64,000 nucleotides of DNA, from the NCBI RefSeq assembly GCF_013409995.1, contig NZ_JACCBX010000012.1, positions 62,001-126,000 on the forward strand. The letters are read 5' to 3'. Below, piece by piece: positions 7,734 to 52,066 of the stretch. Positions within the stretch are counted from its first letter, which is position 1, and every line of letters starts with the position of its first letter. The notes below the pieces were generated by a model that was not told the DNA's origin, did no database searches, and saw only the letters and a list, made by a program, of their open reading frames with translations. A program made the translations under genes and the position numbers. Origin of the DNA: Neobacillus driksii. Its GTDB lineage: Bacteria; Bacillota; Bacilli; Bacillales; Cytobacillaceae.

Positions 7734-8360
7734 GTGACCGAAGAGCGTTTGGGTCAATGCAGAAGGTCCGGAGTGACCGAAGAGCATGTAGAAAAGGCGT
7801 TTGGGTCAATGCAGAAGGTCCGGAGTGACCGAAGAGCATGTAGAAAAGGCATTTGGGTCAATGCAGAAGGTCTGGAGTGACCGAAGAGCATGTAGAAAAA
7901 GCATTTGGGTCAATGCAGAAGGCCTTGAGTGACCGAAGAGCATGCAGAAAAGGCATTTGGGTCAATGCAGGAGGTCTGGAGTGACCGAAGAGTATTTAGA
8001 AAAGGCACTTGGGTCAATGCAGAAGGCCTGGAGTGACCGAAGAGCATGTAGAAAAGGCATTTGGGTCAATGCAGAAGGCCTGGAGTGACCGAAGAAAGTG
8101 TAGAAAAAGCATTTGGGTCAATGCAGAAGGCCTGGAGTGACCGAAGAACATGTAGAAAAAGCAATTGGGTCAATGCAGGAGGTCTGGAGTGACCGAGGAG
8201 TATTTAGAAAAGGCACTTGGGTCAATGCAGAAGGCCTGGAGTGACCGAAGAAAGTGTAGAAAAAGCATTTGGGTCAATGCAGGAAGTCTGGAGTGACCGA
8301 AGATCATGCAGAAAAGGCATTTGGGTCAATGCAGGAGGTCTAGAGTGACCGAAGAGCATT
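7734..8360 (+). repeat. Tandem array A: about 12 units of 52 bp
   Basis: The word GTGACCGA recurs at 7734, 7773, 7825 and then every 52 bases to 8345. This gives one short first unit (39 bp, lacking about 13 bases), eleven 52-bp units and a partial last one. Each unit has TGACC, then GGGTCA about 30 bases later, so short inverted words alternate along the array. Copies differ by a few substitutions. There is no long ORF, no unique spacer and no cas gene. The array starts right after the ArsR terminator and ends about 98 bp before the LysE gene. Confidence 0.95.
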
Positions 8361-8457
8361 CAACTCTAGGACATTCTTTCTTCATCATTTTTTAAAAAGC
8401 CAATTTCAAGAAAATCGTGATATGATATTTGTAAACACGTGTATAGGAGAGAGAGAG

Positions 8458-9072
8458 ATGTGGGCTTTTATTTTGGTTGTACTGGTGCTGTTTCTAATCC
8501 CAGGCCCAGCGGTGTTATTGACCTTGACTCAAACCGTAAAAGGCGGATTAAGAGCTGGCATCATTACCGGTGTTGGCATTGCGGTAGGGGATTTAATTCA
8601 TACGATTGCAGCCGTTCTTGGTCTGTCAGCCATCCTTATGACATCAGCATTAGCTTTTGAAGTAGTTAAATATCTAGGCGCAGCTTATTTAATCTTTTTA
8701 GGAATAAAGGCATTGTTCGAAAAAACAAAAAAGCACGAACAGCCAAAAGTCAAAAAAGAGAAATCTGCTGTATCCTTTCGACAAGCCTTACTTATTGAAT
8801 TGCTGAACCCAAAAACAGCGTTATTTTTCCTTGCGTTTCTTCCGCAATTCGTAAAAACAGATGGTCCCCCGGTAGTCTATCAACTATTAAATTTAGGGCT
8901 AGTCTTTGTGTTAATGAGTATTTTGTACACCTCAACCTTAGCCTTTCTAGCAAGTTCATTAGGTAATAAGCTGTTTACAAAAAACAGCAAGATTTCTCGC
9001 TGGCAGGGAAAAGTCGTAGGAACTATTTACATTGGATTAGGTTTACAATTGGTCTTCCAAAGTCAAAAATAA
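8458..9072 (+). CDS. LysE/RhtB family amino-acid exporter
   Basis: The 204-residue protein has about six membrane segments and the family signature near the N-terminus (LFLIPGPAVLLTLTQTVKGG), plus ELLNPKTALFFLAFLPQF in the middle. These proteins export amino acids or related metabolites from the cytoplasm. ATG at 8458 is chosen because AGGAGAGAGAG lies just before it; the in-frame ATG at 8422 has no ribosome site. It is monocistronic, with repeat array A upstream and a terminator at 9078. The substrate cannot be read from sequence. Confidence 0.88.
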   Translation: MWAFILVVLVLFLIPGPAVLLTLTQTVKGGLRAGIITGVGIAVGDLIHTIAAVLGLSAILMTSALAFEVVKYLGAAYLIFLGIKALFEKTKKHEQPKVKKEKSAVSFRQALLIELLNPKTALFFLAFLPQFVKTDGPPVVYQLLNLGLVFVLMSILYTSTLAFLASSLGNKLFTKNSKISRWQGKVVGTIYIGLGLQLVFQSQK

Positions 9073-9077
9073 TAGTA

Positions 9078-9108
9078 AGCGGCACATTAAAAAGTGTGCC
9101 GCTATTTT
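9078..9108 (+). terminator. Terminator of the LysE-family gene
   Basis: AGCGGCACA(TT) pairs with (AG)TGTGCCGCT and is followed by ATTTTATT, six bases after the stop codon. Confidence 0.8.
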
Positions 9109-9109
9109 A

Positions 9110-9179
9110 TTGACAGGGTATATGGATATATGATATTTAAATATTGTCGGAGTTAGCACTCTGATGTCGAGAGTGCTAA
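9110..9179 (+). promoter_or_regulatory. htpG promoter with perfect CIRCE operator (HrcA)
   Basis: TTAGCACTC (9153-9161), nine bases, GAGTGCTAA (9171-9179) matches the CIRCE consensus without a mismatch. TTGACA at 9110-9115 is a likely -35, with an AT-rich -10 near 9134-9139. HrcA binding here would repress htpG outside heat shock. Confidence 0.93.
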
Positions 9180-9223
9180 TGATTCGAAAACTAGTTAATC
9201 AAAATATGTAAGGAGAGGTTTCG

Positions 9224-11104
9224 ATGTCCAAAAAGCAGTTTAAAGCTGAGTCTAAACGGCTGTTAGAAATGATGATTAACTCTATTTATACGCACCGCGA
9301 GGTATTTTTAAGAGAGTTAATCTCAAATGCGAGTGATGCGATTGATAAAATCTACTACAAAGCATTAACAGATGATACCTTAAGCTTCGACAAAGACAGT
9401 TACTTTATTAAAGTAATCCCTGACAAGGAAAATAGAACCTTGAAAATTATTGATACCGGGATTGGGATGACGAAGGAAGAGCTTGAAACCAACCTTGGTA
9501 CGATTGCGAAAAGTGGATCTTTAGCCTTTAAAAAAGAAACAGAATTAAAAGATGGCTATGACATTATCGGTCAGTTTGGTGTCGGCTTCTATGCGGCATT
9601 CATGGTTGCGGATGTTGTGACAGTTATTAGTAAAGCAGTAGGCAGTGATGAAGCTTACAAGTGGGAATCTACCGGAGCAGAAGGCTATACGATTGAGACA
9701 GTCGAGAAGGATTCTGTTGGAACTGAAATTATCCTTAAAGTTAAAGAAAATACGGAAGATGAAAACTATGATGAGTTTTTAGAGGAGTACCGCCTAAAAT
9801 CCATTATTAAAAAATACTCCGACTTTATCCGCTATCCAATCAAAATGGATGTTAAAGGAAAGAGGCCGGTAGAGGGCAGCGATAATGAGTTTGAGGATTA
9901 TGTAGAAGAACAAGTCATAAATAGCATGGTTCCAATCTGGAAGAAAAATAAAAGCGAACTAACTGACGATGACTATGCGAACTTCTATGCAGAAAAACGT
10001 TACGGGTTTGATAAACCGATTAAACATATCCATGTAAGTGTTGACGGGACAATCCGCTATAATGCCATTTTATATATTCCAGAAAAAACTCCTTTTGATT
10101 TCTACTCAAAAGAATTTGAAAAAGGCTTGGAGCTTTATTCAAATGGTGTTTTAATAATGGAAAAGTGTGCAGACTTGCTACCTGACCACTTTAGCTTCGT
10201 AAAAGGAATGGTTGACTCTGAGGACCTATCTCTTAATATCTCAAGAGAGATGCTGCAGCATGATCGTCAACTGAAGCTTATTTCTAAAAATATTAACAAA
10301 AAAATTAAGAGTGAACTTCAAAGCTTATTAAAAAATGAACGAGAAAAATATGAAGAATTCTATAAATCGTTTGGCCGTCAGTTAAAATACGGTGTTTATA
10401 GTGAATTCGGGGCGAATAAAGAAGTATTACAGGACCTGATTATGTTCTACTCTTCTAAAGAGAAGAAGCTTGTTACATTGGATGAATATGTATCAAGAAT
10501 GCCGGAAGAACAGAAATATATCTATTATGCTTCTGGTGAATCAATTGAAAGAATTGATAAACTGCCTCAAGCAGAGTTTGTTTCTGAAAAAGGCTTTGAA
10601 ATTCTTTATTTCACTGAGGATATCGATGAATTTGCAATCAAAATGTTAATGACCTACAAGGAAAAAGAATTCAAATCCATCTCTAGCGGTGACTTAGGAA
10701 TTGAAGGCGAAGAAAACAAGAGCGATTCCGAAACAGAGGAGAAGGAATACAAAGAAATCTTTGACTATATGAAAACTATTTTAGAGGGTAAAGTCAAGGA
10801 TGTCCGAGTTTCAAAACGCTTAAAGTCTCACCCTGTCTGCCTGGCAACCGAAGGCGACATCTCGATTGAAATGGAAAAAATCCTTGCTGCCATGCCTGAT
10901 AATCAAAATATTAAAGCTGAAAAGGTGCTTGAGATTAATAAAAATCATGAAGTATTCCAATCATTAAAAGAAGCATTTGAAAATGATAAAGAGAAGCTAG
11001 ATTTGTATACAAAGTTACTTTACAATCAAGCACTTCTGATTGAAGGATTACCAATCCAAGATCCAGTTGAATTTACGAATGATATTTGTAAGATTATGGT
11101 ATAA
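9224..11104 (+). CDS. htpG: Molecular chaperone HtpG (Hsp90)
   Basis: The 626-residue protein is full length for bacterial Hsp90. It has the GHKL ATPase motifs [16 protein letters not shown] and [11 protein letters not shown] in the first 130 residues, the middle-domain catalytic SREMLQ and a complete C-terminal dimerization domain. It remodels client proteins in the cytoplasm in an ATP-driven clamp cycle. AAGGAGAGG precedes the ATG. It is monocistronic with a terminator at 11165. The upstream CIRCE element puts it under HrcA; in B. subtilis htpG is not an HrcA target, so the control differs. Confidence 0.97.
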
Positions 11105-11164
11105 CCAACTTTGAATTAATACCTCATTATCATTTACTGCTTTTAAGGAAAAACATTAAAAAGT

Positions 11165-11201
11165 TGCCGTGCTCACATAGTAGTGAGTGCGGCATTTTTT
11201 A
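11165..11201 (+). terminator. htpG terminator
   Basis: TGCCGTGCTCAC pairs with GTGAGTGCGGCA (one internal irregularity) around a six-base loop, and a TTTTTT run follows. Confidence 0.85.
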
Positions 11202-11290
11202 TTTATTTGGCTTTATTATGAATAAGGAATTTGCTCAAGAAAAGAATTTCCATTAATCAGCTTTGTTAAAAATGATGTAAAGGAGTAAAA

Positions 11291-11310
11291 GGGGGATCAT
11301 CCCCCTTTTT
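11291..11310. terminator. Short GC-rich hairpin between htpG and the LysR gene
   Basis: GGGGG and CCCCC flank ATCAT and TTTTT follows on the plus strand; AAAA precedes it, so on the minus strand it also resembles a terminator and probably serves the LysR gene. Confidence 0.7.
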
Positions 11311-11355
11311 ATCGTTAAAGAAAGATTATGATTGTATTTAGAATTGACGCCGGAT

Positions 11356-12255
11356 TTATAGTTGCTCTCTCTTAAAAGAAAATTCTTCCTTTGATATTAG
11401 CTCGATAAAGCTATAGATTGTCTGGTTTTGATTCTTCCGCGTCAGTATATAGGTGTGTGCAGACGGGAGAGAGAAGTATGGAAAAGGAATTATATCGATA
11501 TATCCCTTCTCGACCTGGTCTTTCACTGTTGAAAGAGGAAGAAAGGATATGCCCATCCCCTCCTTAATCCATTCAACGGATACGTGTACCTTGCTTACCT
11601 TCATGGTTCTCACATTAGACACGTGTTGCCGAAGTTGAAATAACAGATCATCCCAGTATAGTGGATGGTTATAGGTGAACAGTAAATTTTCATGAAAGAT
11701 ATCGTTCGTACTTAACACCCTTTCATTTAGTACACCAACGCCGTGTGGACCAACGAGAACAATTGGGTCGTTATATAGCTCAATGCATTCAATTTGTTCC
11801 TGTACGACTGGAATTCGGCCAATCCCTATGTCACACTCCTGATTAATCACGCTAGATATTACTGAACTCGAATCCGTCACCTCAATAGAGAACTCTGTTT
11901 CTGGACTCATTTTGCGAAATTCTCTAATCCAGCTGGGAAGATATGTTGTTGCAACGACCGTAGCTACAGAGATTTTGATGGTTTCCTGGTAACCCTGAAG
12001 ACGCCTTGCGACATATTCTATGCTCTCGTTGTAGTTCTCCAAAATAGTTTTGGCGTACTGTAAGAATCCCAGTCCTGTTGGATTTAACTGAACAGACCTG
12101 CCGACGCGGTCGAACAGCTGAGTTTCGAGCTTGTCCTCGATATTTTGAATATGAAGCGTGACAGTTGACTGGGCAACATGAAGTCTGTCCGCAGTTCTCC
12201 TGAAATTTCCCTCTTCTGCAGCAGTTATAAATGTCTTTAACCAGCTAAGTTCCAT
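11356..12255 (-). CDS. LysR family transcriptional regulator
   Basis: The 299-residue protein begins with the LysR winged helix-turn-helix (FRRTADRLHVAQSTVTLHIQ at about residues 18-37). A periplasmic-binding-like effector domain follows (TTYLPSWIREFRKMSPETEF and on). It is transcribed divergently from the fumarase/tartrate dehydratase genes with a 199-bp shared control region, the usual place for a LysR activator of that operon. The inducer is likely a C4 dicarboxylate such as tartrate, malate or fumarate, by context only. The start ATG follows AGGAGAG. Confidence 0.9.
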   Translation of the reverse strand: MELSWLKTFITAAEEGNFRRTADRLHVAQSTVTLHIQNIEDKLETQLFDRVGRSVQLNPTGLGFLQYAKTILENYNESIEYVARRLQGYQETIKISVATVVATTYLPSWIREFRKMSPETEFSIEVTDSSSVISSVINQECDIGIGRIPVVQEQIECIELYNDPIVLVGPHGVGVLNERVLSTNDIFHENLLFTYNHPLYWDDLLFQLRQHVSNVRTMKVSKVHVSVEWIKEGMGISFLPLSTVKDQVEKGYIDIIPFPYFSLPSAHTYILTRKNQNQTIYSFIELISKEEFSFKREQL

Positions 12256-12322
12256 AATGACTCTCCTCCTTACAATTATTATAATACCAGTTTTGATTGA
12301 CTTTATCGATTAAATCATTCAT

Positions 12323-12347
12323 AAACATTCATTATACATGAATGTTT
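12323..12347. promoter_or_regulatory. Palindromic LysR-type operator in the divergent control region
   Basis: AAACATTCAT (12323-12332) and ATGAATGTTT (12338-12347) are perfect 10-bp arms with a five-base spacer. It lies between the divergent LysR and fumarase genes, where a LysR-type activator site is expected. A T run follows, so an AT-only terminator is the alternative; the divergent setting argues for an operator. Confidence 0.7.
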
Positions 12348-12454
12348 TTTTAACCTATACTTGAGTCAAGGAACAAACAGAGAAGGGGTTTAGGGTTGCC
12401 TTTTCTCGCCACATAGTTTATGCGCAAACAAAAAAATTAAAGGATGGATGAGGA

Positions 12455-13297
12455 ATGAGAAAGATTTCTGTAGAACAGATTCGCGATGCTGTCTCTGTAC
12501 TTTGTTGGGAGGCTTGTTATTACTTACCGGATGACATTGTAAATGGATTCCATAAGGCTTTGGAAACAGAACAGTCTCCGTTGGGGAAGTCGATTCTTGA
12601 ACAGCTAATTGAAAACGCTAACTTAGCTGCCAAAGAAGATAGACCATATTGCCATGATACAGGGCTTACCGTTGTCTATGCAGAAGTTGGCCAGGAAGTA
12701 CACATTGAGGGAGGAGATTTTGAAGCAGCGATTCATGAGGGCATTCGAAAAGGCTACAAGGAGGGATACCTTCGTAATTCAGTCGTAGGGGATCCATTAC
12801 TCAGAATCAATACAAACGATAATACCCCGGGTGTGATACACACCAGAATCGTTCCAGGAGACAAGATCAAATTAACGGTTCTGCCTAAGGGTGGCGGAAG
12901 TGAAAATATGAGTGCGATGAAATTCTTGCTCCCTGGAGAAGGAGTGGCGGGGGTGAAAAAATTTGTATTGGACACGATCGAAGCGGCTGGAGGAAGAGCA
13001 TGTCCTCCTATCGTAGTGGGAGTAGGCGTTGGCGGGACCTTTGATAAAGTAACGGAGATTGCTAAAGAGGCCGTTCTGCGTGAAATAGGCGTGCATCATC
13101 ACGAACCGCATATTGCCCAACTAGAGAAAGAATTACTCGAAGAGATTAACAAGCTGGGAATTGGTCCACAGGGATTGGGAGGTACGAATACGGCATTATG
13201 GGTAGCTGCTGAAACTTATGGATGCCATATTACAGCTCTTCCAGTAGCCGTGAATATCCAGTGCCATGCTGCACGTAAAAAATCTTATGTACTCTAA
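12455..13297 (+). CDS. Class I fumarate hydratase / L-tartrate dehydratase, alpha subunit
   Basis: The 280-residue protein is the N-terminal half of the iron-sulfur hydro-lyases (FumA-N/TtdA), with YCHDTGLTVVYAEVG, GGGSENMSAMKFL and GVGVGGTFDKV. The alpha subunit supplies the cysteines of the 4Fe-4S cluster that binds the hydroxy-acid substrate. With the beta subunit it converts fumarate to malate or tartrate to oxaloacetate; sequence alone does not decide which. AAAGGATGGATGAGG precedes the ATG. The beta subunit follows 24 bases on and a dicarboxylate carrier after that, so this is a C4-dicarboxylate use operon under the divergent LysR. Confidence 0.88.
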   Translation: MRKISVEQIRDAVSVLCWEACYYLPDDIVNGFHKALETEQSPLGKSILEQLIENANLAAKEDRPYCHDTGLTVVYAEVGQEVHIEGGDFEAAIHEGIRKGYKEGYLRNSVVGDPLLRINTNDNTPGVIHTRIVPGDKIKLTVLPKGGGSENMSAMKFLLPGEGVAGVKKFVLDTIEAAGGRACPPIVVGVGVGGTFDKVTEIAKEAVLREIGVHHHEPHIAQLEKELLEEINKLGIGPQGLGGTNTALWVAAETYGCHITALPVAVNIQCHAARKKSYVL

Positions 13298-13321
13298 ATT
13301 TGAAAAGGTAGGTGCTAATAA

Positions 13322-13897
13322 ATGGCTAAAGTCTACTTACAAACCCCGCTTACTATTGAGGATGTTATAAATTTACACGCAGGTGATGAAGTCTTCCTAA
13401 ATGGAATTATATATGTAGCTAGAGACGCTGCTCATAAGCGGTTTCTCGAGCTGTTGGACAAAAATCAACCACTTCCTGTGAATCTGAAAAACCATATAAT
13501 TTTTTATGCTGGACCTACTCCCCCTAAACCTGGTCAAGTGATTGGATCCATTGCTCCTACAACAGCCTCCCGCATGGACCCATATGCACCGGCCATGTTT
13601 GAATACGGGGTTAAGGGCGTGATTGGAAAAGGACCACGGGGTCAATCGGTGAAAGATGCATGCAAAGACCATCAAGCCATTTGCTTTTCTGCCGTTGGTG
13701 GGCTATCCGCGCTTTTAAGTGATAAAATCCAATCCGCAGAAGTAGTAGCATATGAAGATCTCGGGCCAGAGGCAATTCGTCAACTCATTGTCAAGGATTT
13801 CCCAGTAATGGTAGTCTATGATGCACACGGTAACGATCTTTATGAGCAGGAAATAGCGAAGTATCGATCAACAGAAAAAGTAATAGGACACATTTAA
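13322..13897 (+). CDS. Class I fumarate hydratase / L-tartrate dehydratase, beta subunit
   Basis: The 191-residue protein is the C-terminal half of the same enzyme family (FumA-C/TtdB). It contains YAGPTPPKPGQVIGSIAPTT and SRMDPYAP, which shape the substrate carboxylate pocket, and VIGKGPRGQSVKDACK. It works only with the alpha subunit encoded just upstream. In many bacteria the two are one fused fumarase; here they are separate, as in archaeal fumarases and TtdAB. ATG follows AAGGTAGG. It is followed 27 bases later by the carrier gene. Confidence 0.88.
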   Translation: MAKVYLQTPLTIEDVINLHAGDEVFLNGIIYVARDAAHKRFLELLDKNQPLPVNLKNHIIFYAGPTPPKPGQVIGSIAPTTASRMDPYAPAMFEYGVKGVIGKGPRGQSVKDACKDHQAICFSAVGGLSALLSDKIQSAEVVAYEDLGPEAIRQLIVKDFPVMVVYDAHGNDLYEQEIAKYRSTEKVIGHI

Positions 13898-13924
13898 AAG
13901 ATAAAAAATAGGAGGATTATCGTA

Positions 13925-15190
13925 ATGAAAAAACTGGGACTCCCTATCCAAATTTTACTTGGTCTGATCTTTGGTGTCATCGTTGGGTTGGTATTTTACA
14001 AACATCCTGGCGTCGAGACCTATTTAAAACCAGTAGGCGACATTTTTTTACGGTTAATTAAAATGGTTGTGGTTCCCATCGTTTTTTCGAGTATAGTGGT
14101 TGGCATTGCCGGAATGGGCAGTGCCAAGAAGCTCGGTAAATTAGGGTTTAGAACCATTCTATATTTTGAAGTGGCTACCACGATCGCGATTGTAATCGGT
14201 CTGTTTTTTGCAAACGTTTTCCAACCCGGCGCAGGAGTTGATATGAAAACACTTGCTCAAGGGGACATATCAAAATACGTTGCAACTGAACAGGAGATGG
14301 AGAAGGGGAGTCATTTAGATTTTATTGTTAATATAGTTCCGTCTAATATCGTTGACTCGATGGCACAAGGGCACCTATTACCTGTTATTTTCTTCGCTAC
14401 TCTGTTAGGTCTAGCAATCGCGGCGATGGGAGAATCGGGGAAGCCCCTGCTGAATTTCTTTAAAAGCTTTTCTAGTGCTATGTTCCATATGGTTTCCTAT
14501 GTTCTTAAAGTGGCACCATTCGGGGTTTTTGGGCTAATTGGTGTAACCATTTCCAAGTTTGGAGTAGCCTCACTAATTCCATTAGGGAAATTAATCGTTA
14601 CAGCTTATGGTGCGTACCTGCTCTTCGCTATCGTCTGCTTTGGATTAGTAGCCAAATTATTTAAAATCAATTTTATCCAGTTTATCAAATTTTTTAAGGA
14701 TGAATTCCTTCTTGTTTTTTCTACGTCAAGTGCCGAATCCGCTCTACCCCAAGTGATGAAGAAGCTGGAGAGCTATGGATGCCCGAAATCGATCGTTTCA
14801 TTTGTAGTCCCGGTTGGATATTCCTTTAATACGGATGGATCTTGTATATATCTGGCTCTTTCTTCCCTTTTTATTGCCCAGCTTTACGGAATTGACATGC
14901 CACTAAGTGCACAAATCACGTTGCTGTTAATTCTTGCGATTACTTCCAAAGGTATCTCTGGAGTAGCCGGCGGAGCATTAGTAGTGCTTCTCTCTTCTTT
15001 AGCAGCTGCAGGACTTCCGCTTGAAGGTTTAGCTTTTATCGCAGGAATTGACTTTATCTTAAATATGGGCCGAGCTTGTATTAATGTAATTGGAAACGCT
15101 TTAGCATCCGTAGTTATTACGAAATGGGAAGGTCAATTTGATCATGAAAAGAATAAGGCATGCGTTGTTTCTGATAAGATTGCTGTTTAG
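13925..15190 (+). CDS. Dicarboxylate/amino acid:cation symporter (DAACS family)
   Basis: The 421-residue protein has the GltP/DctA fold: about eight membrane helices, the serine-rich hairpin STSSAESALP and the substrate loop FNTDGSCIYLAL (NMDG-type motif). It imports C4 dicarboxylates or acidic amino acids with protons or sodium. Its place behind the two-subunit hydro-lyase suggests it brings in fumarate, malate or tartrate for that enzyme. AGGAGGATTATCGTA precedes the ATG. A terminator follows at 15201, closing the operon. Confidence 0.9.
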   Translation: MKKLGLPIQILLGLIFGVIVGLVFYKHPGVETYLKPVGDIFLRLIKMVVVPIVFSSIVVGIAGMGSAKKLGKLGFRTILYFEVATTIAIVIGLFFANVFQPGAGVDMKTLAQGDISKYVATEQEMEKGSHLDFIVNIVPSNIVDSMAQGHLLPVIFFATLLGLAIAAMGESGKPLLNFFKSFSSAMFHMVSYVLKVAPFGVFGLIGVTISKFGVASLIPLGKLIVTAYGAYLLFAIVCFGLVAKLFKINFIQFIKFFKDEFLLVFSTSSAESALPQVMKKLESYGCPKSIVSFVVPVGYSFNTDGSCIYLALSSLFIAQLYGIDMPLSAQITLLLILAITSKGISGVAGGALVVLLSSLAAAGLPLEGLAFIAGIDFILNMGRACINVIGNALASVVITKWEGQFDHEKNKACVVSDKIAV

Positions 15191-15200
15191 GAAAGCTAGT

Positions 15201-15234
15201 AGGGCCGCTGCATGAATTCACGGCCCTTATTTTG
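15201..15234 (+). terminator. Terminator of the hydro-lyase/symporter operon
   Basis: AGGGCCG (15201-15207) pairs with CGGCCCT (15221-15227) and is followed by TATTTTG. Confidence 0.8.
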
Positions 15235-15264
15235 TGAATATTTGTAATTTGGAGTTGATTTCTA

Positions 15265-16062
15265 ATGCAGGTACTACAAAAAACGATGACAATCGTTCGT
15301 TATCAGAATGAAAATGGAAAAGTGTATTACGGAATTGTTGAGGATGATGAAATTTTACAGTTGTCGAGTAATTTTACTGAAATTGTAAACAATGAACTAA
15401 AATTTGATGGTGATAGGGTTAAATATAATGATGTGAAAATTTTGGAGCCTGTAGCACCATCAAAAGTGATTAATTTTGGCTGGACGTATGCTGCACACGC
15501 AAGAGAGACGGGTGGAACAGCCAACCTCAATGAACCTTTTTTATTTTTAAAACCTACAACCAGCTTAATTCCAGATCGAGGAAAAATCGTTCTTCCACCA
15601 AGTAATTTAACTCAACAGGTCGAGTTGGAGGGGGAAGTTGCACTTGTAATTGGGAAACGAGGAAAAAATATAAAAGAAGAAGAAGCGTTGGATTATGTAT
15701 TTGGCTGTACTATATTTAACGATGTAACAGCAAGAGATCTTACAAAAAAGGACCCTCAGTTCACACGCGGCAAAGGTTTTGACACTTTTGGTCCATTGGG
15801 GCCATGGATTGTAGCAGGCATAGATTCAACCAATTTACGAATCGTTACAACATTAAATGGTAAAGTGGTTCAGGATGGTAATACGAATCAAATGTCACTT
15901 TCTATTCCTTACCTTATCAGTTGGGTTTCCCAGATTATGACATTGGAGCCTGGTGATGTTTTGGCTACTGGTTCTCCTTCTGGCAGTTGTCCAATGAGAT
16001 CTGGTGACATCGTTACTGTGGAAGTAGAAAATATCGGTAAGCTGTGTAATTATGTAATATAG
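15265..16062 (+). CDS. Fumarylacetoacetate hydrolase family protein
   Basis: The 265-residue protein carries the FAH-type fold with the metal-binding sequence VELEGEVALVIGKRGKNI, the FNDVTARDLTKKDPQF region and GKGFDTFGPLGPW. The family hydrolyses or decarboxylates beta-diketo acids (5-oxopent-3-ene-tricarboxylate, acylpyruvates or oxaloacetate). The usual C-terminal TGTPxGVG is TGSPSGSCP here, a small deviation. The first ATG has GGAG ten bases before it; ATG at 15286 is an alternative. It follows the dicarboxylate operon after a terminator, so it may be a separate unit; an oxaloacetate decarboxylase-like role would fit the context. Confidence 0.82.
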   Translation: MQVLQKTMTIVRYQNENGKVYYGIVEDDEILQLSSNFTEIVNNELKFDGDRVKYNDVKILEPVAPSKVINFGWTYAAHARETGGTANLNEPFLFLKPTTSLIPDRGKIVLPPSNLTQQVELEGEVALVIGKRGKNIKEEEALDYVFGCTIFNDVTARDLTKKDPQFTRGKGFDTFGPLGPWIVAGIDSTNLRIVTTLNGKVVQDGNTNQMSLSIPYLISWVSQIMTLEPGDVLATGSPSGSCPMRSGDIVTVEVENIGKLCNYVI

Positions 16063-16213
16063 CAGTTATAGGAAAAGACATATGTTAGGAGTTCGCACGT
16101 GACCAAGTTGGTGAACCCTTCAAATTTCATATTTTCAAGGAATAAGAGAAACCTGGTGTTGGTGTGGAAACTCCTATATTCATTTGTTATTTAATATGAA
16201 AGTTGGAATCTAT

Positions 16214-16782: not shown

Positions 16783-16804
16783 GCAAGCGGTTTGCAATCA
16801 AAGA

Positions 16805-23578: not shown

Positions 23579-23617
23579 TTTGATCATGGTGATCTGTTTT
23601 TGCATAGTTTGATGTTT

Positions 23618-24210
23618 AATCAAGGGTCTTTAGGACAAATTTCAATGCCAAGTCAGAGGGATAGTCCTTAATCAAGGGTCTTTAGGACAAATCTCACGGG
23701 CCAGCCAGAGGATTAGTCCTTAATCCAGGGTCTTGAGGACAAATCTCAAGGCAAAGTCAGAAGGATTAGTCCTTAATCAAAGGTCTTGAGGATCAATCTC
23801 AAGGCCAAGTCAGAGGGATTAGTCCTTAATCAAGGGTGTTGAGGACAAATCTCAAGGCAAAGTCAGAAGGATTAGTCCTTAATCCAGGGTCTTGAGGACA
23901 AATCTCAAGGCCAGTCAGAAGGATTAGTCCTTAATCAAGGGTCTTGAGGACAAAACTCACGGGCCAGCCAGAGGATTAGTCCTTAATCCAGGGGGTTGAG
24001 GACAAATCTCAAGTCCAAGTCAGAAGGATTAGTCCTTAATCAAGGGTGTTGAGGACAAATCTCAAGTCCAAGTCAGAAGGATTAGTCCTTAATCAAGGGT
24101 GTTGAGGACAAATCGCACGGCCAGTCAGAAGGATTAGTCCTTAATCAAGGGTCTAGAGGACAAATCTCTCAACCCTTCAGAAAGGTTTGTCCTTAATATA
24201 GGTTCTTGTT
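23618..24210 (+). repeat. Tandem array B: about 11 units of 52-53 bp between uraD and pucL
   Basis: The word AGTCCTTAATC begins at 23663, 23715, 23768, 23821, 23874, 23926, 23978, 24031, 24084 and 24136, with a diverged copy near 24188. Each unit holds ATTAGTCCT and then AGGACAAAT about 25 bases later, nearly reverse complements. The core GTCCTTAATC...TCTTGAGGACAAAT is almost that of array C. The array lies inside the urate degradation gene series on the sense strand and ends about 95 bp before pucL. Confidence 0.95.
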
Positions 24211-24303
24211 GATAAGCAACAAAGTTACGAGAAGTGCAAAAAAAGTGGTAACCATAACCTGATTTTAAGCCTTTTAAAATGAAAAAAGGAGGCTAAACAC
24301 AAT

Positions 24304-43613: not shown

Positions 43614-43653
43614 TAAAGTAAAATTATTGGAATGTAAAGGTTGTGTTGTTGTT

Positions 43654-44079: not shown

Positions 44080-44091
44080 AAGGAGATGCTT

Positions 44092-45462: not shown

Positions 45463-45552
45463 TATGCGATTCGGACAGGCATAGCAATAAAACATAGGGA
45501 GAGGTCTACAGTTCTATTTTTTTAAATAGTAACTGGGAGGCATGGGAGATAT

Positions 45553-46266
45553 ATGACAAAGAAAAAGACCATTTTTGGAGTAATTGTACTGCTTTTTATT
45601 ATTATTTGTTGGTTTTTATATCAAAAAATAACAGACGACACCTATAAAGGGATGTCAATTATCCCTGAAGAACACAAGGATATCCCTTTATTCAAAGGAT
45701 TAGAACCAACTGAACACCAATATATTATGAAGGGGAATCACTGGGAGGATATTTATCATTTTTACATGAAGGAACTTCCTGGGCGGGGTTGGCAAAAGGA
45801 GTATACAGAATCTGCACTTGACGATAATGAGGCTGATAATGATTGGAGTGGATTTATGTCACGCTGGAGAAAAGAAGATTTTGATGGTGAATTATGGATT
45901 TCTGCTCAGTACAATCAAAGTGAGGACCAAACAGAGGTCATGTTTGATAAAACGGAAATTTTACAAACAACTACTTGGATTGAGGATGTTCCAGATAGTA
46001 TTTGTATCTATCAGAGTCCAAGTGATCAAAACTGTACAGAAATTAAAGATAAATCCAAGGTAGAACAAATCATAAGGTTCATTAACGAAGCAATGGATAC
46101 GAATGAAGAAGTGGATTCTCGAAATGAAACATTGATAATAGATCTTAATGATAGTAAAGTAAACGTTTTTTATGAAGATGAAAAAGAAATTTTTCTAAAA
46201 TCTGAAAAAGGTACAAAATTGATGAAACCCGAGCATGAATTCTTAGAACTTCTCATCGAAAAATAA
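45553..46266 (+). CDS. Membrane-anchored protein of unknown function (237 residues)
   Basis: There is one N-terminal membrane helix (about residues 5-23), then an extracellular part rich in acidic residues and tryptophan. Repeated WxxIYHFYM and LWISAQYNQSEDQTEVMFDK stretches suggest a mixed alpha/beta domain. I do not recognise a family. GGGAGGCATGGGAG precedes the ATG. It is the only gene in its stretch and is followed by the acetyltransferase gene 80 bases on. Confidence 0.55.
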   Translation: MTKKKTIFGVIVLLFIIICWFLYQKITDDTYKGMSIIPEEHKDIPLFKGLEPTEHQYIMKGNHWEDIYHFYMKELPGRGWQKEYTESALDDNEADNDWSGFMSRWRKEDFDGELWISAQYNQSEDQTEVMFDKTEILQTTTWIEDVPDSICIYQSPSDQNCTEIKDKSKVEQIIRFINEAMDTNEEVDSRNETLIIDLNDSKVNVFYEDEKEIFLKSEKGTKLMKPEHEFLELLIEK

Positions 46267-46345
46267 TCGGATTACTATCGGTATTAAATATGGAAAAAAC
46301 ACACATACTTTCCTCATTAAGACACTTTACCAGAGGAGTAGTAGT

Positions 46346-46921
46346 ATGCATTGGTATGAGAAATTAAATCAATATTTTCCGATTGAAGAAATGAAGTCTA
46401 GGGAGCATATGGAAACTTTATTAAAAGAGCGTTCCGATATTTATCATAAAGCTGAAGGTCCGAATCATGTTTTGATGTATGCAGAGTTAGAGGATTTTGT
46501 ATTTATTGACTATCTTTTTGTTTCAAAAGATGCACGCGGCCAGGGACTTGGTCATAAGCTTCTCGAAAAAATGAAACAAAAAGGAAAGCCTATTATTCTT
46601 GAAGTTGAACCCGTTAACTATCAAGACAGTGATTCAGGAAAAAGGCTTCATTTTTACAAAAGAGAAGGTTTTGAACACGCTAATTCCATCGGCTATGAGA
46701 GAAGGTCGTTAGCGACAAATGAGGTTAATAAAATGGAAATTCTTTATTGGGCTCCAAATAAAGAGTCTGAGGAACTAATCTTTGAGGCCATGAGAAAGAC
46801 GTATGATAAAATTCATACCTATAAGGATCAGCACTTCTATGGAGAATCATACCAACCTGTTGAAGAGGTTTTGACCTTTAATGAAGATCCACAGAGTCAA
46901 AATATATTAGACAATTTATGA
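46346..46921 (+). CDS. GNAT family N-acetyltransferase
   Basis: The 191-residue protein has the GNAT core: DFVFIDYLFVSKDARGQGLG (the acetyl-CoA loop RGQGLGHKLL), then GKPIILEVEPVN and HFYKREGFEHA. The C-terminal 60 residues extend past the core. It transfers an acetyl group from acetyl-CoA to an unknown amine. GAGGAG precedes the ATG. A terminator follows at 46926. Confidence 0.8.
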   Translation: MHWYEKLNQYFPIEEMKSREHMETLLKERSDIYHKAEGPNHVLMYAELEDFVFIDYLFVSKDARGQGLGHKLLEKMKQKGKPIILEVEPVNYQDSDSGKRLHFYKREGFEHANSIGYERRSLATNEVNKMEILYWAPNKESEELIFEAMRKTYDKIHTYKDQHFYGESYQPVEEVLTFNEDPQSQNILDNL

Positions 46922-46925
46922 AAAA

Positions 46926-46960
46926 AATGCACTGCTCCATAACGAGTAGTGCATTTTTTT
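46926..46960. terminator. Bidirectional terminator between the acetyltransferase and DUF3891 genes
   Basis: AATGCACT (46926-46933) and AGTGCATT (46948-46955) flank a 14-base loop, with A and T runs on both sides. Confidence 0.75.
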
Positions 46961-47725
46961 CTATTTAAAAACTACCTTCCTAATCGAAACAGGCGTGTCC
47001 TTATATGCTTGGATAATGCCGTGCTTTTCAATTTGGTCTTTTATTACTGCTCGATAGGGCAGCTCAACTTCCATTTCCTTTTTCAGTGGTGAGAAGGATA
47101 GCGAAACCGTTTCTGGGTTTTCCCAATGAGCAACAATTGGCTTGTCCGTAACAAACGGAAATAACTGTGGAAACCCATTGCGAAAAAATGAGTGAATCCC
47201 TTTATTATCTCCAGGTTCATTTAGACTGATAAACAGGGATAAATAATCACAAAATTTTAATAAATCTAAGTGGTACATTAGGGTTTCTTGTTTATGCTTA
47301 TCCCCCGTTAATTGCAATTCCTTTGAAAGCTGTTCCTGTCTTTGCTTTTCTTCTTTCCAAAATTCCCTGACAGCAGACTCGCTTGAATCTTGAATGAACG
47401 ATGAGTAGTGCAAGCTGCATAAAAGTCCTGCATACTTGCTTAGTTTTTCTACTTCGTCTAATCCCTTTTTATAAAAAGTAATTTTGAGGGATAGTGGATA
47501 ATCAATAAAAGAGTACGGTTTCTCCGTTTTATCATTCCATACCGGGGACGAATCCATTTCAATCCAGCCTCGGTCATGTTCTTTAATTGCCAGCAGTACT
47601 TCTTGAGTACGGTTATCATCAAAAAAATAATCCTCTTTGCAATTCCGAGCGATAACGCCAGCAATTTGTGCGTGTTCATTCTGAGTTACCATAAGAAAGC
47701 TTTGTTCCCGTTCCAGTATAATCAT
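46961..47725 (-). CDS. DUF3891 family protein
   Basis: The protein of about 254 residues has the DUF3891 start MIILEREQSFLMVTQNEHAQ, followed by LAIKEHDRGWIEMDSSPVWN with histidines. An upstream in-frame extension of 46 residues shows no such family text, so ATG at 47725 is used. The domain is all-helical, with HD-like His/Asp motifs that may bind a metal; the function is unknown. YjbQ follows on the same strand 175 bases upstream of its start. Confidence 0.78.
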   Translation of the reverse strand: MIILEREQSFLMVTQNEHAQIAGVIARNCKEDYFFDDNRTQEVLLAIKEHDRGWIEMDSSPVWNDKTEKPYSFIDYPLSLKITFYKKGLDEVEKLSKYAGLLCSLHYSSFIQDSSESAVREFWKEEKQRQEQLSKELQLTGDKHKQETLMYHLDLLKFCDYLSLFISLNEPGDNKGIHSFFRNGFPQLFPFVTDKPIVAHWENPETVSLSFSPLKKEMEVELPYRAVIKDQIEKHGIIQAYKDTPVSIRKVVFK

Positions 47726-47899
47726 TCTCGTAAATCCCTTTCCTTTGTAAAAACTGAACTTGTTCGGATTCCACATGCTTCCTTTTATATTTCCTTTATC
47801 TAGTAGATCTAAACCAAAACTTCCTGCAATCTTGATAACATAAGAAGGAAAAGAACTACCCAATAAAGAATTAACTATTTCGGCTAAATAATTTTAAGG

Positions 47900-48295
47900 T
47901 TAGAGGATTTTTACATAAAACGTTCGTGTACGCGGTCCGTCAAACTCGCAAAAGTATATTCCCTGCCACGTACCTAACAGCAATTGTCCGTTTGCAATAA
48001 TAACATATTGTGAAGCTCCGACTGTACTTGCTTTCATATGGGCTGCAGTATTGCCTTCCATATGCCGATCTTGTGCATGGTGCCATGGATAAACCTCGTC
48101 AAAGCGCCGAATCATGTCTCGTTTCACATCTGGGTCAGCGTTCTCATTAATGGTAGTACCAGCTGTTGTATGTGGACAATAGACGATAGCAGATCCTTCC
48201 TGCAGGTTATTTTCTGTAATGAATTCCTGAACCTGATGGGTGATTTCTATCATTTGATCACGAGTGTTCGTTTTTAACGTAAATTTTTTTAGCAT
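47900..48295 (-). CDS. YjbQ (UPF0047) family protein
   Basis: The 131-residue protein has the conserved core [36 protein letters not shown] and the C-terminal [20 protein letters not shown]. The family has been linked to a secondary thiamine-phosphate synthase activity, which may be accidental. The ATG follows AAGGAAGGATCC. It is read toward the DUF3891 gene and is divergent from comB. Confidence 0.88.
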
Positions 48296-48348
48296 AGGAT
48301 CCTTCCTTTCAAATCATTTAAAAAATTATATAAAGGTGGTGGTTTGTA

Positions 48349-49107
48349 TTGTTCAGTCAATCTCCCTATGTGTGTCGAATGGAATGGGGCAGACGCGGCG
48401 CTAGAGAAGCGGCAGAACGCGGTGATATTATTATTATAGTCGATATCTTAAGTTTCTCATCCACTGTGGTATCTGCATTGCATTTCGGTGCGATGATTTA
48501 TCCTTATCCCCCGTATGGTAACGGGAAACAATACGCGAAAGAAGTGAATGCTGAATATATTTTGGGCAGAGCGGAGGCAGCAAAGGCGGGGAAACCGACA
48601 TTGTCCCCTGTTTCCTTTAATGAAGAACATTCAAAAAAGGGGTATGTACTTTCCTCACTAAATGGAGCTTTTTGCACTTGGATTGCCGCAAAGGCACAAG
48701 CACTTTTTATTGGATCTCTATTAAATGCGACTGCAGTGGCTTCCGCAGCTAATCAATTAAGATTAAAAACGAAAGCAAACATTACAGTAATCCCTTGTGG
48801 TGAGCAATGGAGTAATGGGAGAGAAGAGGAAGATACTCTTCGTCCTGCTATGGAGGATTATTTAGGTGCCGGCGCTATTTTATCTTATTTGGAAGGTGAG
48901 AAATCACCAGAAGCAGAAGTATGTATGGGTGCATTCCTGCAGGCGGAGCCAAAATTAGACGCACTGATTTGGGATAGAGGAAGCAGTCGAGAATTGCGTG
49001 AACGAGGATTTGCTGCAGATGTAGAACATTGCAGCAGGTTAAATGTTTATCAAAGTGTTCCGATTTTAAAAGATAATCATTTTGTTTTATATAATGGGGA
49101 GTTGTAG
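48349..49107 (+). CDS. 2-phosphosulfolactate phosphatase family protein (ComB)
   Basis: The 252-residue protein fits ComB: ERGDIIIIVDILSFSSTVVS near the start, SFNEEHSKKGYVLSSLNGAF and a C-terminal RGFAADVEHCSRLN. In methanogens ComB makes sulfolactate for coenzyme M; in Bacillus a related step gives sulfolactate in spores. The start is TTG at 48349 after AAAGGTGG. The next gene, an acetyltransferase, is three bases away, so they are probably coupled. Confidence 0.82.
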   Translation: MFSQSPYVCRMEWGRRGAREAAERGDIIIIVDILSFSSTVVSALHFGAMIYPYPPYGNGKQYAKEVNAEYILGRAEAAKAGKPTLSPVSFNEEHSKKGYVLSSLNGAFCTWIAAKAQALFIGSLLNATAVASAANQLRLKTKANITVIPCGEQWSNGREEEDTLRPAMEDYLGAGAILSYLEGEKSPEAEVCMGAFLQAEPKLDALIWDRGSSRELRERGFAADVEHCSRLNVYQSVPILKDNHFVLYNGEL

Positions 49108-49110
49108 CCA

Positions 49111-49509
49111 ATGGAGCACATTCGTATTCGACAGTACCAAGAAAATGATTTTAATAGAATTCAAGAGTTAAACCAGCAAGAGGGCTGGAGTAATTTAGTA
49201 GAAAAGAACGAAGATACAAAAGAGGCATGGAACCATTCAAATGTATCTTTGGTGGTGGAGGCAGACGGCGATGGAATAGTCGGATATATTAGAGGTTTTA
49301 CCGACACGCGTATCACTATATATATATGTGAATTGTTAATTGACAAAAAGTATCGTGGGTCAGGTATCGGGAAAAAGTTGCTTCAGTACGTTCATGCTAA
49401 ATATCCAAGTACGAGAATGGAACTTCTTGCTTCTAGTATCTCTCATACATTTTATGAAGGTCAGGGCTATCGTCCATTTTACGGATTCAGAAAGACCTTT
49501 GAAGAATAG
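49111..49509 (+). CDS. GNAT family N-acetyltransferase
   Basis: The 132-residue protein has the GNAT core: IRIRQYQENDFNRIQELNQQ, ICELLIDKKYRGSGIGKKLL (acetyl-CoA loop) and HTFYEGQGYRPF. The acceptor is unknown. It lies three bases after comB and 12 before the histidine phosphatase-GNAT gene, so three plus-strand genes form one unit. Confidence 0.82.
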   Translation: MEHIRIRQYQENDFNRIQELNQQEGWSNLVEKNEDTKEAWNHSNVSLVVEADGDGIVGYIRGFTDTRITIYICELLIDKKYRGSGIGKKLLQYVHAKYPSTRMELLASSISHTFYEGQGYRPFYGFRKTFEE

Positions 49510-49521
49510 GAGTGAAAGTGA

Positions 49522-50589
49522 ATGAAGAAAATTTATCTTATCCGGCATTGTGAGGCTGAGGGGCAGCCGGCGGAAGCATCACTAACAGATAATGGCATTA
49601 AACAATCTGCCCATTTATCGGAATTTTTTAGAGATATTCCTATAGACCGCATTATTTCTAGTCCATATAACCGTGCAGTTCAAACGGTGGAGCCCCTTGC
49701 ACAAAGAATCAATCTTGAAATTGAAAAAAATGATTTATTAACAGAACGTATCCTTAGTTCCCAAAACCTTTCTGACTGGCTAGAAAAATTAAGAGCTACC
49801 TTTGATGACCTAGATTTGAAATTCGAAGGTGGAGAGTCAAGTAGTGAAGCAACGGAACGAATCATAGCCGTAATAGAGGAAGTTCAGAACAGTGAAGAGC
49901 TAAATACTATTATCGTCACACATGGAAATTTACTGTCCTTACTGCTAAATCATTATAATCATCATTTCGGTTTTGAAGAATGGAAAGGTTTACGTAATCC
50001 GGATGTGTTTCTTCTAAAAATCGAGAACGGAACCATAACATACGAAAGATTGTTAATGGAATCAAGCCATCAACTATCCTTGGTTAAACCAACAGTGGAG
50101 TTGATGGATGAATACCTGTCATTCTATAAGGAATGGATAGATAGCAACGAAGATATGATACCTTGGGTTATTAAAAAAGATCCTTCAGATTTTGAGGCAA
50201 TGGTCCAATTTTTAAGAGATAATGAGGAAGGAAGTAATCTGCCAGCAGGGTGGGTGCCTGATTCAACATTTTGGTTAATAAACCAAGACAAAAGAATACT
50301 CGGTGTGGTCAATATAAGACATCAATTAACACAAGATCTTTCCAATCGTGGCGGCCATATTGGTTACGGCATCCGTCCTTCAGAGAGAAGGAAAGGATTT
50401 GCCACTAGATTGCTTTCATTGTCGCTTGAAAAAGCTGATGAGTTAGGAATTAAAAAAGCTCTGGTTGTATGTGATGAAGATAATACCGGTTCCTATAAAA
50501 CGATCATAAATAATGGAGGGATACCAGATTCCGACTTTATTGAAGAAGATGGAAATATCATAAAAAGATTCTGGATAGAAACATGTTGA
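49522..50589 (+). CDS. Histidine phosphatase - GNAT fusion protein
   Basis: The 355-residue protein joins a histidine phosphatase (residues 1-175; IYLIRHCEAEGQPAEASLTD, then ISSPYNRAVQTVEP and IIVTHGNLLSLL) to a GNAT acetyltransferase (about 185-355; VELMDEYLSFYKEWIDSN, then GHIGYGIRPSERRKGFATRL). The catalytic RHxxE and final histidine are present, as is the RRKGFATRLL acetyl-CoA loop. The two parts would be separate genes in most genomes. AGGAGTGAAAGTG precedes the ATG. It is 12 bases past the acetyltransferase gene. Confidence 0.82.
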   Translation: MKKIYLIRHCEAEGQPAEASLTDNGIKQSAHLSEFFRDIPIDRIISSPYNRAVQTVEPLAQRINLEIEKNDLLTERILSSQNLSDWLEKLRATFDDLDLKFEGGESSSEATERIIAVIEEVQNSEELNTIIVTHGNLLSLLLNHYNHHFGFEEWKGLRNPDVFLLKIENGTITYERLLMESSHQLSLVKPTVELMDEYLSFYKEWIDSNEDMIPWVIKKDPSDFEAMVQFLRDNEEGSNLPAGWVPDSTFWLINQDKRILGVVNIRHQLTQDLSNRGGHIGYGIRPSERRKGFATRLLSLSLEKADELGIKKALVVCDEDNTGSYKTIINNGGIPDSDFIEEDGNIIKRFWIETC

Positions 50590-50653
50590 GAGGGTAAAAC
50601 AGGGGCAATAGAAGGAAGCACAAGAAGAAAACGTTATAAGTGGGGGAAAACTG

Positions 50654-51208
50654 GTGGTAATTGAAAAGGAAATCAAAGTGGTTATCGGAGCAGGGGAGTA
50701 CAATAATAATCCAGGCTGGTTACAAACTCAAGAAGAGGAGCTAAATTTACTGGATGAAGCAACTTGGGAGAACCTGTTTGCTAATAACTCGATAACAGCA
50801 ATTCTAGCTGAACACGTTTGGGAGCACTTAACCCATGAAGAAGGAATAGCTGCTGCAAAGCTATGTTTTAAGTATCTTAAGCCTTCTGGTTATATTCGCT
50901 GTGCCGTTCCAGATGGATTTTTTCCCGATGAGGAATATCAAAATTTAGTAAAAATCGGCGGACCTGGTCCAAAAGACCATCCTGCCGCAAGTCATAAGAT
51001 TGTACATAACTATCGTACATTATCGAAAATGTTTGAAGATGCAGGATATAGGGTTACTTTACTGGAATATTGTGATGACGAAGGTAATTTTCACTTCAAC
51101 GATTGGAGTCCTGAAGATGGAGTTATTTTCCGTTCAAAAAAGTTTGACCCAAGGAATAACGACAAACTATTATTTCCTTCTCTCATCATTGACGCAATAA
51201 AACCTTAA
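50654..51208 (+). CDS. SAM-dependent methyltransferase-like protein
   Basis: The 184-residue protein has the late part of a class I methyltransferase: ILAEHVWEHLTHEEGIAAAK, YLKPSGYIRCAVPDGFFPDE and an acidic C-terminal YCDDEGNFHFNDW. The early IGAGEYNNNPGW motif takes the place of the usual SAM-binding glycine loop, and the N-terminus is short. GTG at 50654 follows GGGGGAAAACTG. The substrate is unknown. Confidence 0.7.
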   Translation: MVIEKEIKVVIGAGEYNNNPGWLQTQEEELNLLDEATWENLFANNSITAILAEHVWEHLTHEEGIAAAKLCFKYLKPSGYIRCAVPDGFFPDEEYQNLVKIGGPGPKDHPAASHKIVHNYRTLSKMFEDAGYRVTLLEYCDDEGNFHFNDWSPEDGVIFRSKKFDPRNNDKLLFPSLIIDAIKP

Positions 51209-51252
51209 AGTATTACTACCGGAGTTCATGAGTTAATAGCTGGGCACATGCA

Positions 51253-51280
51253 AGGGGCAGGAAATATCTGCCCCTGCTAT
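51253..51280. terminator. Hairpin between the methyltransferase and small minus-strand gene
   Basis: AGGGGCAG (51253-51260) and CTGCCCCT (51268-51275) form a GC-rich stem with a seven-base loop; TATTTTA follows. Confidence 0.65.
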
Positions 51281-51281
51281 T

Positions 51282-51419
51282 TTAGATATCTTTCTTACCT
51301 TGGTATTTCATCTTAAATTCAGCTTCACTCATATTTGGATTCTTTCTAGGTGTTGTTTTGCTTAGTGCCTTTTTCATTTCTACATTTGCGTCGTCGCTTG
51401 TATTATATTTCCCATCCAT
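51282..51419 (-). CDS. Small Lys/Met-rich protein (45 residues)
   Basis: AAGGAGGGTTACAT leads to an ATG and 45 codons (MDGKYNTSDDANVEMKKALS, KTTPRKNPNMSEAEFKMKYQ) before a stop. The ribosome site is perfect. The product is hydrophilic and short, in the style of spore or stress small proteins of Bacillus. I do not recognise a family. It lies between the hairpin at 51253 and repeat array C. Confidence 0.6.
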   Translation of the reverse strand: MDGKYNTSDDANVEMKKALSKTTPRKNPNMSEAEFKMKYQGKKDI

Positions 51420-51514
51420 ATGTAACCCTCCTTTTTGTCATTAGTATCAAACCTAAATCAATCATTCATTCATTCTTTATTTTTATAAAATACGGTACTA
51501 AAATAAGGAGGAAA

Positions 51515-52066
51515 GATTTGTCCTTAATCAGGAGTCTTGAGGACAAATCATAGCAGCGTCCAGAAAGATTTGTCCTTAATCAGGGGTCTTGAGGACAAAT
51601 CGCAGCAACGTCCAGGAAAGATTTGTCCTTAATCAGGTGTCTTGAGGACAAATCATAGCAGCGTCCAGAAAGATTTGTCCTTAATCAGGGTCTTGAGGAC
51701 AAATCGCAGCAATGGCCAGAAAAGATTTGTCCTTAATCAGGTGTCTTGAGGACAAATCGCAGCAGCGGCCAGAAAGATTTGTCCTTAATCAGGGGTCTTG
51801 AGGACAAATCGTAGCTGTGGCCAGAAAGATTTGTCCTTAATCAGGGGTCTTGAGGACAAATCGCAGCAACGTCCAGGAAAGATTTGTCCTTAATCAGGGA
51901 TCTTGAGGACAAATCATAGAAGCGTCCAGAAAGGATTTGTCTTTAATCAGGGGTCTTGAGGACAAATCGCAGCAGCGTCCAGAAAGGATTTGTCCTTAAT
52001 CAGGAGTCTTGAGGACAAATCATAGTAGCGGCCAGAAAGATTTGTCCTTAATCAGGGTCTTGAGAA
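51515..52066 (+). repeat. Tandem array C: 11 units of 52-53 bp with a hairpin in each
   Basis: GATTTGTCCT starts at 51515, 51567, 51620, 51672, 51724, 51776, 51828, 51881, 51934, 51987 and 52039. In each unit it is followed 15 bases later by its exact reverse complement AGGACAAATC (10-bp arms), then about 17 variable bases. Arms are almost invariant (one T change in the ninth copy), while loop and tail bases vary. The core matches array B with one change in about 29. It ends about 45 bp before ynfA. Confidence 0.96.

Follow-up and report, generated by a model that had tools for sequence, protein, structure and literature searches.

The window analyzed here, a 64,000-nucleotide stretch of the Neobacillus driksii genome (contig NZ_JACCBX010000012.1, positions 62,001 to 126,000; G000:C12:62001-126000 in the host genome, G000, of 6.5 Mb and 31 contigs), carries three arrays of tandem repeats, A, B, and C, with units of 52 or 53 bp. 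Tandem Repeats Finder (TRF) located them as follows:

7748..8359, + strand: array A, period 52 bp, 11.8 copies, TRF score 965
23616..24168, + strand: array B, period 53 bp, 10.5 copies, TRF score 840; 52/53-bp units in the uraD-pucL gap
51511..52064, + strand: array C, period 53 bp, 10.6 copies, TRF score 860; 52/53-bp units 5' of ynfA

TRF rows of longer period extend array B to 24197. None of the listed open reading frames (ORFs) of at least 90 amino acids (aa) overlaps A, B, or C, which are thus non-coding. Array A neighbors a gene for a LysE/LeuE-type exporter, array B the urate oxidase gene pucL, which follows the OHCU decarboxylase gene uraD, and array C the gene for YnfA, confirming the names lysE, pucL, and ynfA given in an earlier reading of the letters alone (the original prediction). 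That reading set the arrays 45 to 100 bp before plus-strand genes; such genes do follow all three, but at distances of 63 bp (A), 107 to 136 bp, depending on the chosen end of the array (B), and 37 bp (C). Its account of a 52- or 53-bp period with an inverted pair of short words in each unit held for every array. Units of A contain the arms GGTCA..TGACC within a longer imperfect stem, together with a purine-rich linker; the arms are GATTAGTCCTTAA..TTGAGGACAAATC in B and GATTTGTCCTTAA..TTGAGGACAAATC in C. As predicted, B and C have a common core, with about 1 base different in 30. Mean column identity of the units is 94% in A and 83% in B and C pooled. The claim that A is unrelated in sequence does not hold cleanly. 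The A-B alignment is not significant (82 of 400 shuffles equalled its score). The best A-C alignment lies in the same register, and its score of 37 (shuffle mean, 26) was equalled by 11 of 400 shuffles. By eye, A-like arrays in relatives have a 27 + 25 layout in common with other families. Kinship of array A with other families is suggestive only.

The original prediction knew of no named class with these properties, and one is in fact described. In the available text of Subirana and Messeguer (2021, PMC8161180), 176 Bacillus genomes gave 4029 tandem repeats, including 1886 of 51 to 53 nucleotides (nt) and 781 of 20 to 21 nt. The repeats are presented there as constant in size and variable in sequence, with several families per species and partial conservation between strains; short words occur with their reverse within one repeat, and coding repeats come in multiples of three. 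A DNA-polymerizing protein or small RNAs are suggested, and no function is named in that text. In the accessible part of a second paper (PMC8625621), such repeats are reported to be transcribed in B. coagulans. A literature search, with most subscription papers outside it, returned no account of the class beyond these two. A, B, and C are almost certainly three among several dozen arrays of this Neobacillus genome that belong to this class of constant length and variable sequence. Their units lie within 51 to 53 nt, in at least four copies (11.8, 10.5, and 10.6), outside coding sequence; the same genome holds several families of one length and differing sequence; other lengths are rare in it (17 of 19 non-coding arrays at 51 to 52 or 20 to 21 bp, and one each at 11 and 12); and 64 of 73 arrays, A, B, and C included, pair a word with its reverse inside a single repeat. 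Set beside the published description, as far as it is available, the arrays are alike in length, non-coding position, multiple families, reversed words, 20- to 21-nt companions, coding repeats in multiples of three, and partial strain conservation, with no difference in any feature tested. To that description, the present data add that arrays sit at gene ends, show a strand bias, can replace a different family at an orthologous site, and can have remnants of a family on both sides.

Across the host genome, a model of the B/C unit matched 163 units and a model of the A unit 71 (E ≤ 1). A third word, TCATGAA..TTCATGA, gave 47 forward and 39 reverse matches with one mismatch allowed, many being the same palindrome on both strands. 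Contigs C3, C6, C7, and C18 start or finish within one array family, indicating that arrays interrupted the assembly. We surveyed repeat length over 1.44 Mb unselected for arrays, made up of 72 segments of 20 kb each; 60 lay on an even grid and 12 were chosen by hand, five of these adjoining the window. Nineteen non-coding arrays of at least 2.8 copies were found: nine at 52 bp (one of them, L108, already known), one at 51 bp (inside an ORF under a looser ORF limit), five at 21 bp, two at 20 bp, and one each at 12 and 11 bp. The 14 coding arrays of the survey had periods from 12 to 78. Four relatives, covered over 200 kb each, contained 11 non-coding arrays at 52 to 53 bp, one at 51, and seven at 20 to 21, with no further period; arrays inside ORFs comprised three of 52 bp (G010) and one each of 21 and 42 bp (G021). 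G021 as a whole had no hit to either unit model, A or B, under strict filters, and its seven non-coding 52-bp arrays within 200 kb had words of their own. Over all fetched loci, many of which were retrieved because they resembled family A or B, periods between 18 and 130 fell at 51 to 53 bp in 90 non-coding arrays, at 19 to 21 in 22, at 25 to 45 in none, and at 61 to 130 in one, after removal of multiples of a shorter period and of rows lying under a better 52-bp row.

The spacing of individual units was counted with coding arrays included. In the host genome it was 52 bp in 194 cases, 53 in 53, 51 in 12, 48 in 20, 41 in four, and 55 and 100 in one each, period 48 being found in two arrays; in relatives it was 52 in 278, 53 in 31, 51 in 15, 50 in two, and 54 and 58 in one each. 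Copy numbers reached 24 at the upper end and about 2, the least detectable, at the lower, so that the roughly 11 units of A, B, and C are not typical. The constraint is on length and not on sequence, because in an unselected 1.44 Mb 10 of 19 non-coding arrays were 51 to 52 bp and seven were 20 to 21 bp. Other periods were not equally frequent, and the prediction that an equal period reflects a constraint on spacing is upheld to this extent.

Several further repeats were seen along the way. At L144:5396-5996, 41-bp units are mixed into a 52-bp array, a rare departure from the length rule. Companion arrays of 20 to 21 bp lie at L119:4992-5069, L128:7893-7989, L128:18586-18679, and L145:12246-12344 and, near pucL in relatives, at L189:11534-11647, L191:11218-11340, L192:11218-11277, L197:11507-11617, and L215:10312-10423. 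Several relatives have a 21-bp array about 4 to 5 kb past the end of pucL; L201 has a 52-bp array at 11300-11643, perhaps in the same gap. A 13-bp tandem repeat, TCACCAATAAATA, of 10.5 copies (L068:387-525) lies close to a contig start and a B-type array, and a 267-bp tandem repeat of 3.7 copies, 96% alike (L072:6440-7425), has a period that is a multiple of three and may be genic.

Stems were tested in 73 of 75 arrays, two being left out. In 64 of the 73, no more than 2 of 40 dinucleotide shuffles matched the best inverted repeat, and in 54 none did; the dyad in the units is real. Substitutions per base numbered 0.038 at positions paired in the consensus stem and 0.103 at others. Non-stem positions were 0.675 purine on the richer strand and at least 0.6 in 55 of 73 arrays, an excess that is partly built in by the choice of the richer side. 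The analysis shows that each unit of about 52 bp consists of an inverted repeat and, usually, a purine-rich linker, arranged head to tail, at gene ends. Among double changes in consensus Watson-Crick pairs, 21 stayed Watson-Crick, one became G-U, and eight became unpaired; single changes gave G-U 126 times, A-C 89 times, and other combinations 156 times. Of the cells in 24 B-type consensus hairpins, 91.7% are paired, compared with 35 to 52% when the partner is slid; the covariation score was reached by 26 of 500 shuffles and the paired percentage by 48 of 500. Selection for RNA pairing is suggested. B-type stems grade into GTCCTTCAT..ATGAAGGAC stems.

The original prediction regarded a position before a gene as a hallmark of the arrays. 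What the arrays generally adjoin is instead the 3' end of a neighboring gene, and a 5' end following the array is not the rule. Genes were called as the longest ORF (at least 60 aa near arrays and at least 90 aa for the baseline), and the baseline was the 580 gaps above 60 bp in the even-grid sample. Arrays of the host genome with two neighbors numbered 21 in tandem, 16 in convergent, and none in divergent gaps (n = 37); removal of two possibly coding 51-bp arrays and two pieces of L078 left 21, 12, and 0 (n = 33), and three rows at contig ends were excluded from the counts. Against 390 tandem, 79 convergent, and 111 divergent baseline gaps, convergent gaps were enriched (12 of 33 versus 79 of 580; P = 9 × 10^-4) and divergent gaps avoided (0 of 33 versus 111 of 580; P = 1.4 × 10^-3), so that placement relative to genes is nonrandom, as the original prediction expected. 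Counting array C as divergent gave P = 0.014, and taking L073 out of the convergent set gave P = 0.003. Array C was called tandem by virtue of a 68-aa ORF that runs into it, and would be divergent if the following ORF is a gene:

51282..51419, − strand: 45-aa ORF directed away from array C, its ATG preceded by a GGAGGG stretch (translation)

This ORF, which is not among the listed ones, has a strong ribosome-binding-like stretch and had no Pfam match. With relatives included, the counts were 48 tandem, 40 convergent, and 5 divergent of 93, a set in which some arrays share a site and many were fetched by model. At L065, L067, and L068, the sole neighboring gene has its 5' end facing the array.

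Array orientation was biased as well. In tandem gaps, the B family, with strand assigned by homology, ran with the genes in 15 of 17 cases and against them in two (11 of 11 with the genes in the host genome). Other families, with strand assigned by the purine-rich side of non-stem positions, ran with the genes in 19 of 21 and against in two; sense intergenic DNA is 0.528 purine, which puts the null for such calls near 0.62 (P = 0.004). Arrays that occupy the same orthologous site cannot be treated as independent; uraD-pucL accounts for several of them, and the two opposite B cases, L181 and L183, look like one site. By a hand count, about 21 of 27 array strands match the leading strand as given by GC skew. 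The two A-family exceptions to the gene rule in the host genome, L083 and L085, agree with the leading strand. Two observations speak against replication direction as the cause of orientation. L069 agrees with its genes and opposes GC skew, and six convergent B-type arrays were divided between the leading strand (L062, L071, and L073) and its opposite (L074, L077, and L080, of which L074 and L080 are weak model matches). Replication direction may contribute to array orientation.

Terminators were found before the array at 21 of 53 array-facing gene ends and beyond it at 7 of 53, with both at four, compared with a terminator within 100 nt at 58 of 173 ordinary gene ends; these counts include four rows of the two doubtful 51-bp arrays and take the L078 pieces apart. 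At L071, L080, and L144, a terminator lies on either side of the array. Since terminators, where found, fall mostly between gene and array, many arrays need not belong to the finished mRNA, and termination as the arrays' own job is unsupported. The counts are low, as the detector missed a hairpin before array A:

7697..7722, + strand: terminator-like hairpin with a T-run, between an ArsR-type gene and array A (two found versus 0.9 expected in shuffles)

The second match is the same site read on the opposite strand.

Array families have turned over between uraD and pucL. The PucL encoded in the window shares 90 to 94% identity with the enzyme of Neobacillus niacini and its near relatives. In this gap, relatives carried 52-bp arrays that were A-like (L181, L185, and L214), of GGTAACCATGAA type (L182 and L183), or of GGTCACT type (L184 and L186); L187 had one single unit by eye, and no array was found in this gap in the remaining fetched relative loci. 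The uraD-pucL families have a common layout and linker type, and where no array is present the two genes are often only 1 to 17 bp apart. In the pucL tree, the window, with its B words, grouped with L182, L183, and L184 (support 98/97). Alignment with L182, L183, and L187 revealed arms of their family on both sides of array B:

23584..23594, + strand: remnant arm TCATGGTGATC of the L182/L183/L187 family, left of array B
24242..24255, + strand: remnant arm AAAGTGGTAACCAT of the same family, right of array B

These older-family arms indicate that the words were replaced here while the length was kept. The simplest reading of the alignment is that array B came to sit within a unit of the older family. 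At the ynfA site, relatives carried other families (L220, L223, L224, and L226) or the B family (L218), and most of 30 loci had no array.

Known repeat systems resemble the arrays in part. Repetitive extragenic palindromic (REP) sequences, according to the available text of PMC3733652, are palindromes that lie, often in clusters, in the gaps of tandem and convergent genes; proposals for their role include both gyrase and RNA. The arrays are like REPs and bacterial interspersed mosaic elements (BIMEs) in being intergenic, palindromic, and placed between tandem or convergent genes, but they have head-to-tail units, one fixed length, and free words. A REP tag (GTAG or CGTC on one or the other strand, no more than 8 nt beyond the end of a stem) occurred in 4 of 73 consensus units and in none of A, B, and C, and the head-to-tail units lack the alternating orientation of BIMEs. 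The host genome encodes a protein like the REP-associated tyrosine transposases (RAYTs) directly 5' of a Mg-chelatase/ComM-like gene (L311:1716-2336; G000:C1:360757-361086). It matches PF01797, and its best NCBIfam model, NF047646 (REP_Tyr_transpos), scored 65.6 bits, below the cut-off of 80; among 60 genomes of the genus, 57 matched this model at E ≤ 0.001 and 22 exceeded the cut-off, and three (G018, G020, and G033) had no PF01797 match. No 52-bp array was present in any of the four 4-kb loci inspected around RAYT-like genes. The arrays may work like a REP/BIME element by analogy, yet we do not class them as one: they lack the tag and the alternating orientation, and no RAYT-like gene was linked to them in the four loci inspected. 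A RAYT is a candidate for their partner. CRISPR loci are likewise regular arrays whose repeats show dyad symmetry. Here the whole unit is repeated (94% identity in A and 83% in B and C) without unique spacers and at many loci, which rules against CRISPR identity; cas genes were not searched for. No known RNA family was recognized, since Rfam gave no match at gathering score in the window. A blastn search for a plasmid source, made for array B only, and one for a phage source, made for array C only, gave no matches.

As the leading though tentative mechanism, we propose that the array is a REP/BIME-like DNA element, phased with the helix, that belongs to the zones where transcription ends. Selection would act on unit length and the pairing of arms, and not on words. 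Given the helical repeat of B-DNA, 52 to 53 bp is about five turns and 20 to 21 bp about two, and it is plausible, we infer, that the two lengths were chosen as such. The element would act at the DNA level where transcription ends, in one of two ways. It could offer a nucleoid or topology protein a lattice in phase with the helix, or it could be prone to form cruciforms and so handle the supercoils and read-through polymerase arriving from flanking genes, as has been proposed for REP/BIME; new words would spread by the copying of one array into or over another. In its favor are the fixed length under changing words, the inverted arms with their slower change, the placement at gene ends, which REPs also show, the strand of the B family, the terminators that lie mostly before arrays, and the replacement of families at one site. 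Several observations weigh against this proposal. No protein is known or was found for the arrays; unit spacing is inexact (52 bp in 194 cases, 53 in 53, and 51 in 12 in the host genome); 9 of 73 arrays have no significant inverted repeat; and five arrays of relatives, perhaps also C, sit in divergent gaps. Purifying selection by itself could explain why promoter regions are avoided. A strand preference is unexpected for a simple DNA lattice, the A family in tandem gaps ran seven with and three against the genes (not significant), and the excess of G-U over A-C changes (126 to 89; P = 0.03) leans to RNA.

Selfish or neutral repeats, with a length set by the copying machine (a RAYT-type single-strand transposase or slippage with a ruler), would survive at gene ends because they do least harm there. 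We consider this a serious rival, though somewhat doubtful. Convergent gaps are favored and promoter gaps avoided, as for harmless passengers, families have spread over many loci, one array sits within the unit of another, and a RAYT-like gene is at hand. However, that gene is so common in the genus that its presence is uninformative, and no array lay in the four RAYT-like loci; the strand bias and slower stem change suggest selection, although a hairpin-reading enzyme could produce both. A second serious rival, somewhat less likely again, is that the arrays act as RNA, transcribed in the sense direction with a flanking gene so that each unit forms a hairpin and the purine-rich single-stranded linkers either recruit an RNA-binding protein or adjust the ends of mRNAs. 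The orientation of the B family (15 of 17 with genes) and the G-U excess are consistent with such a role, as are one pair in the 24 B-type hairpins, which is C-G in 12, U-G in nine, U-A in three, and never C-A, and the reported transcription in B. coagulans (PMC8625621, accessible text); the 1- to 17-bp spacing of uraD and pucL in array-free relatives implies that the array there is probably transcribed. Yet a terminator precedes the array more often than it follows it (21 versus 7 of 53), covariation is weak against shuffles (26 of 500), and RNA offers no plain reason for lengths of 52 and 20 to 21. That the length is merely inherited from one 52-bp ancestor of all families and kept by tandem homogenization is very unlikely. 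The A-C alignment in register, the layout and linker type common to the uraD-pucL families, and the grading of B-type stems into GTCCTTCAT..ATGAAGGAC stems speak for common descent, but the case for A-C kinship is marginal (11 of 400 shuffles), and that for A-B kinship is not significant (82 of 400). Moreover, units of 51 and 53 bp arise within arrays, yet other lengths never spread while words changed past recognition, and the 20- to 21-bp class would need a separate account.

Extended beyond this genome, the proposal of a phased DNA element leads to a broader idea, which we hold with some skepticism: the 52-bp and 20- to 21-bp repeats of Firmicutes may be a genetic element without a sequence, selected solely for whole-turn spacing and a pairing unit at transcription ends, such that families swap at fixed sites and the function stays. 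Although the class was published in 2020-2021, it has been given no function. Placement at gene ends, strand bias, and the replacement of families at uraD-pucL make the question "why 52?" directly testable.

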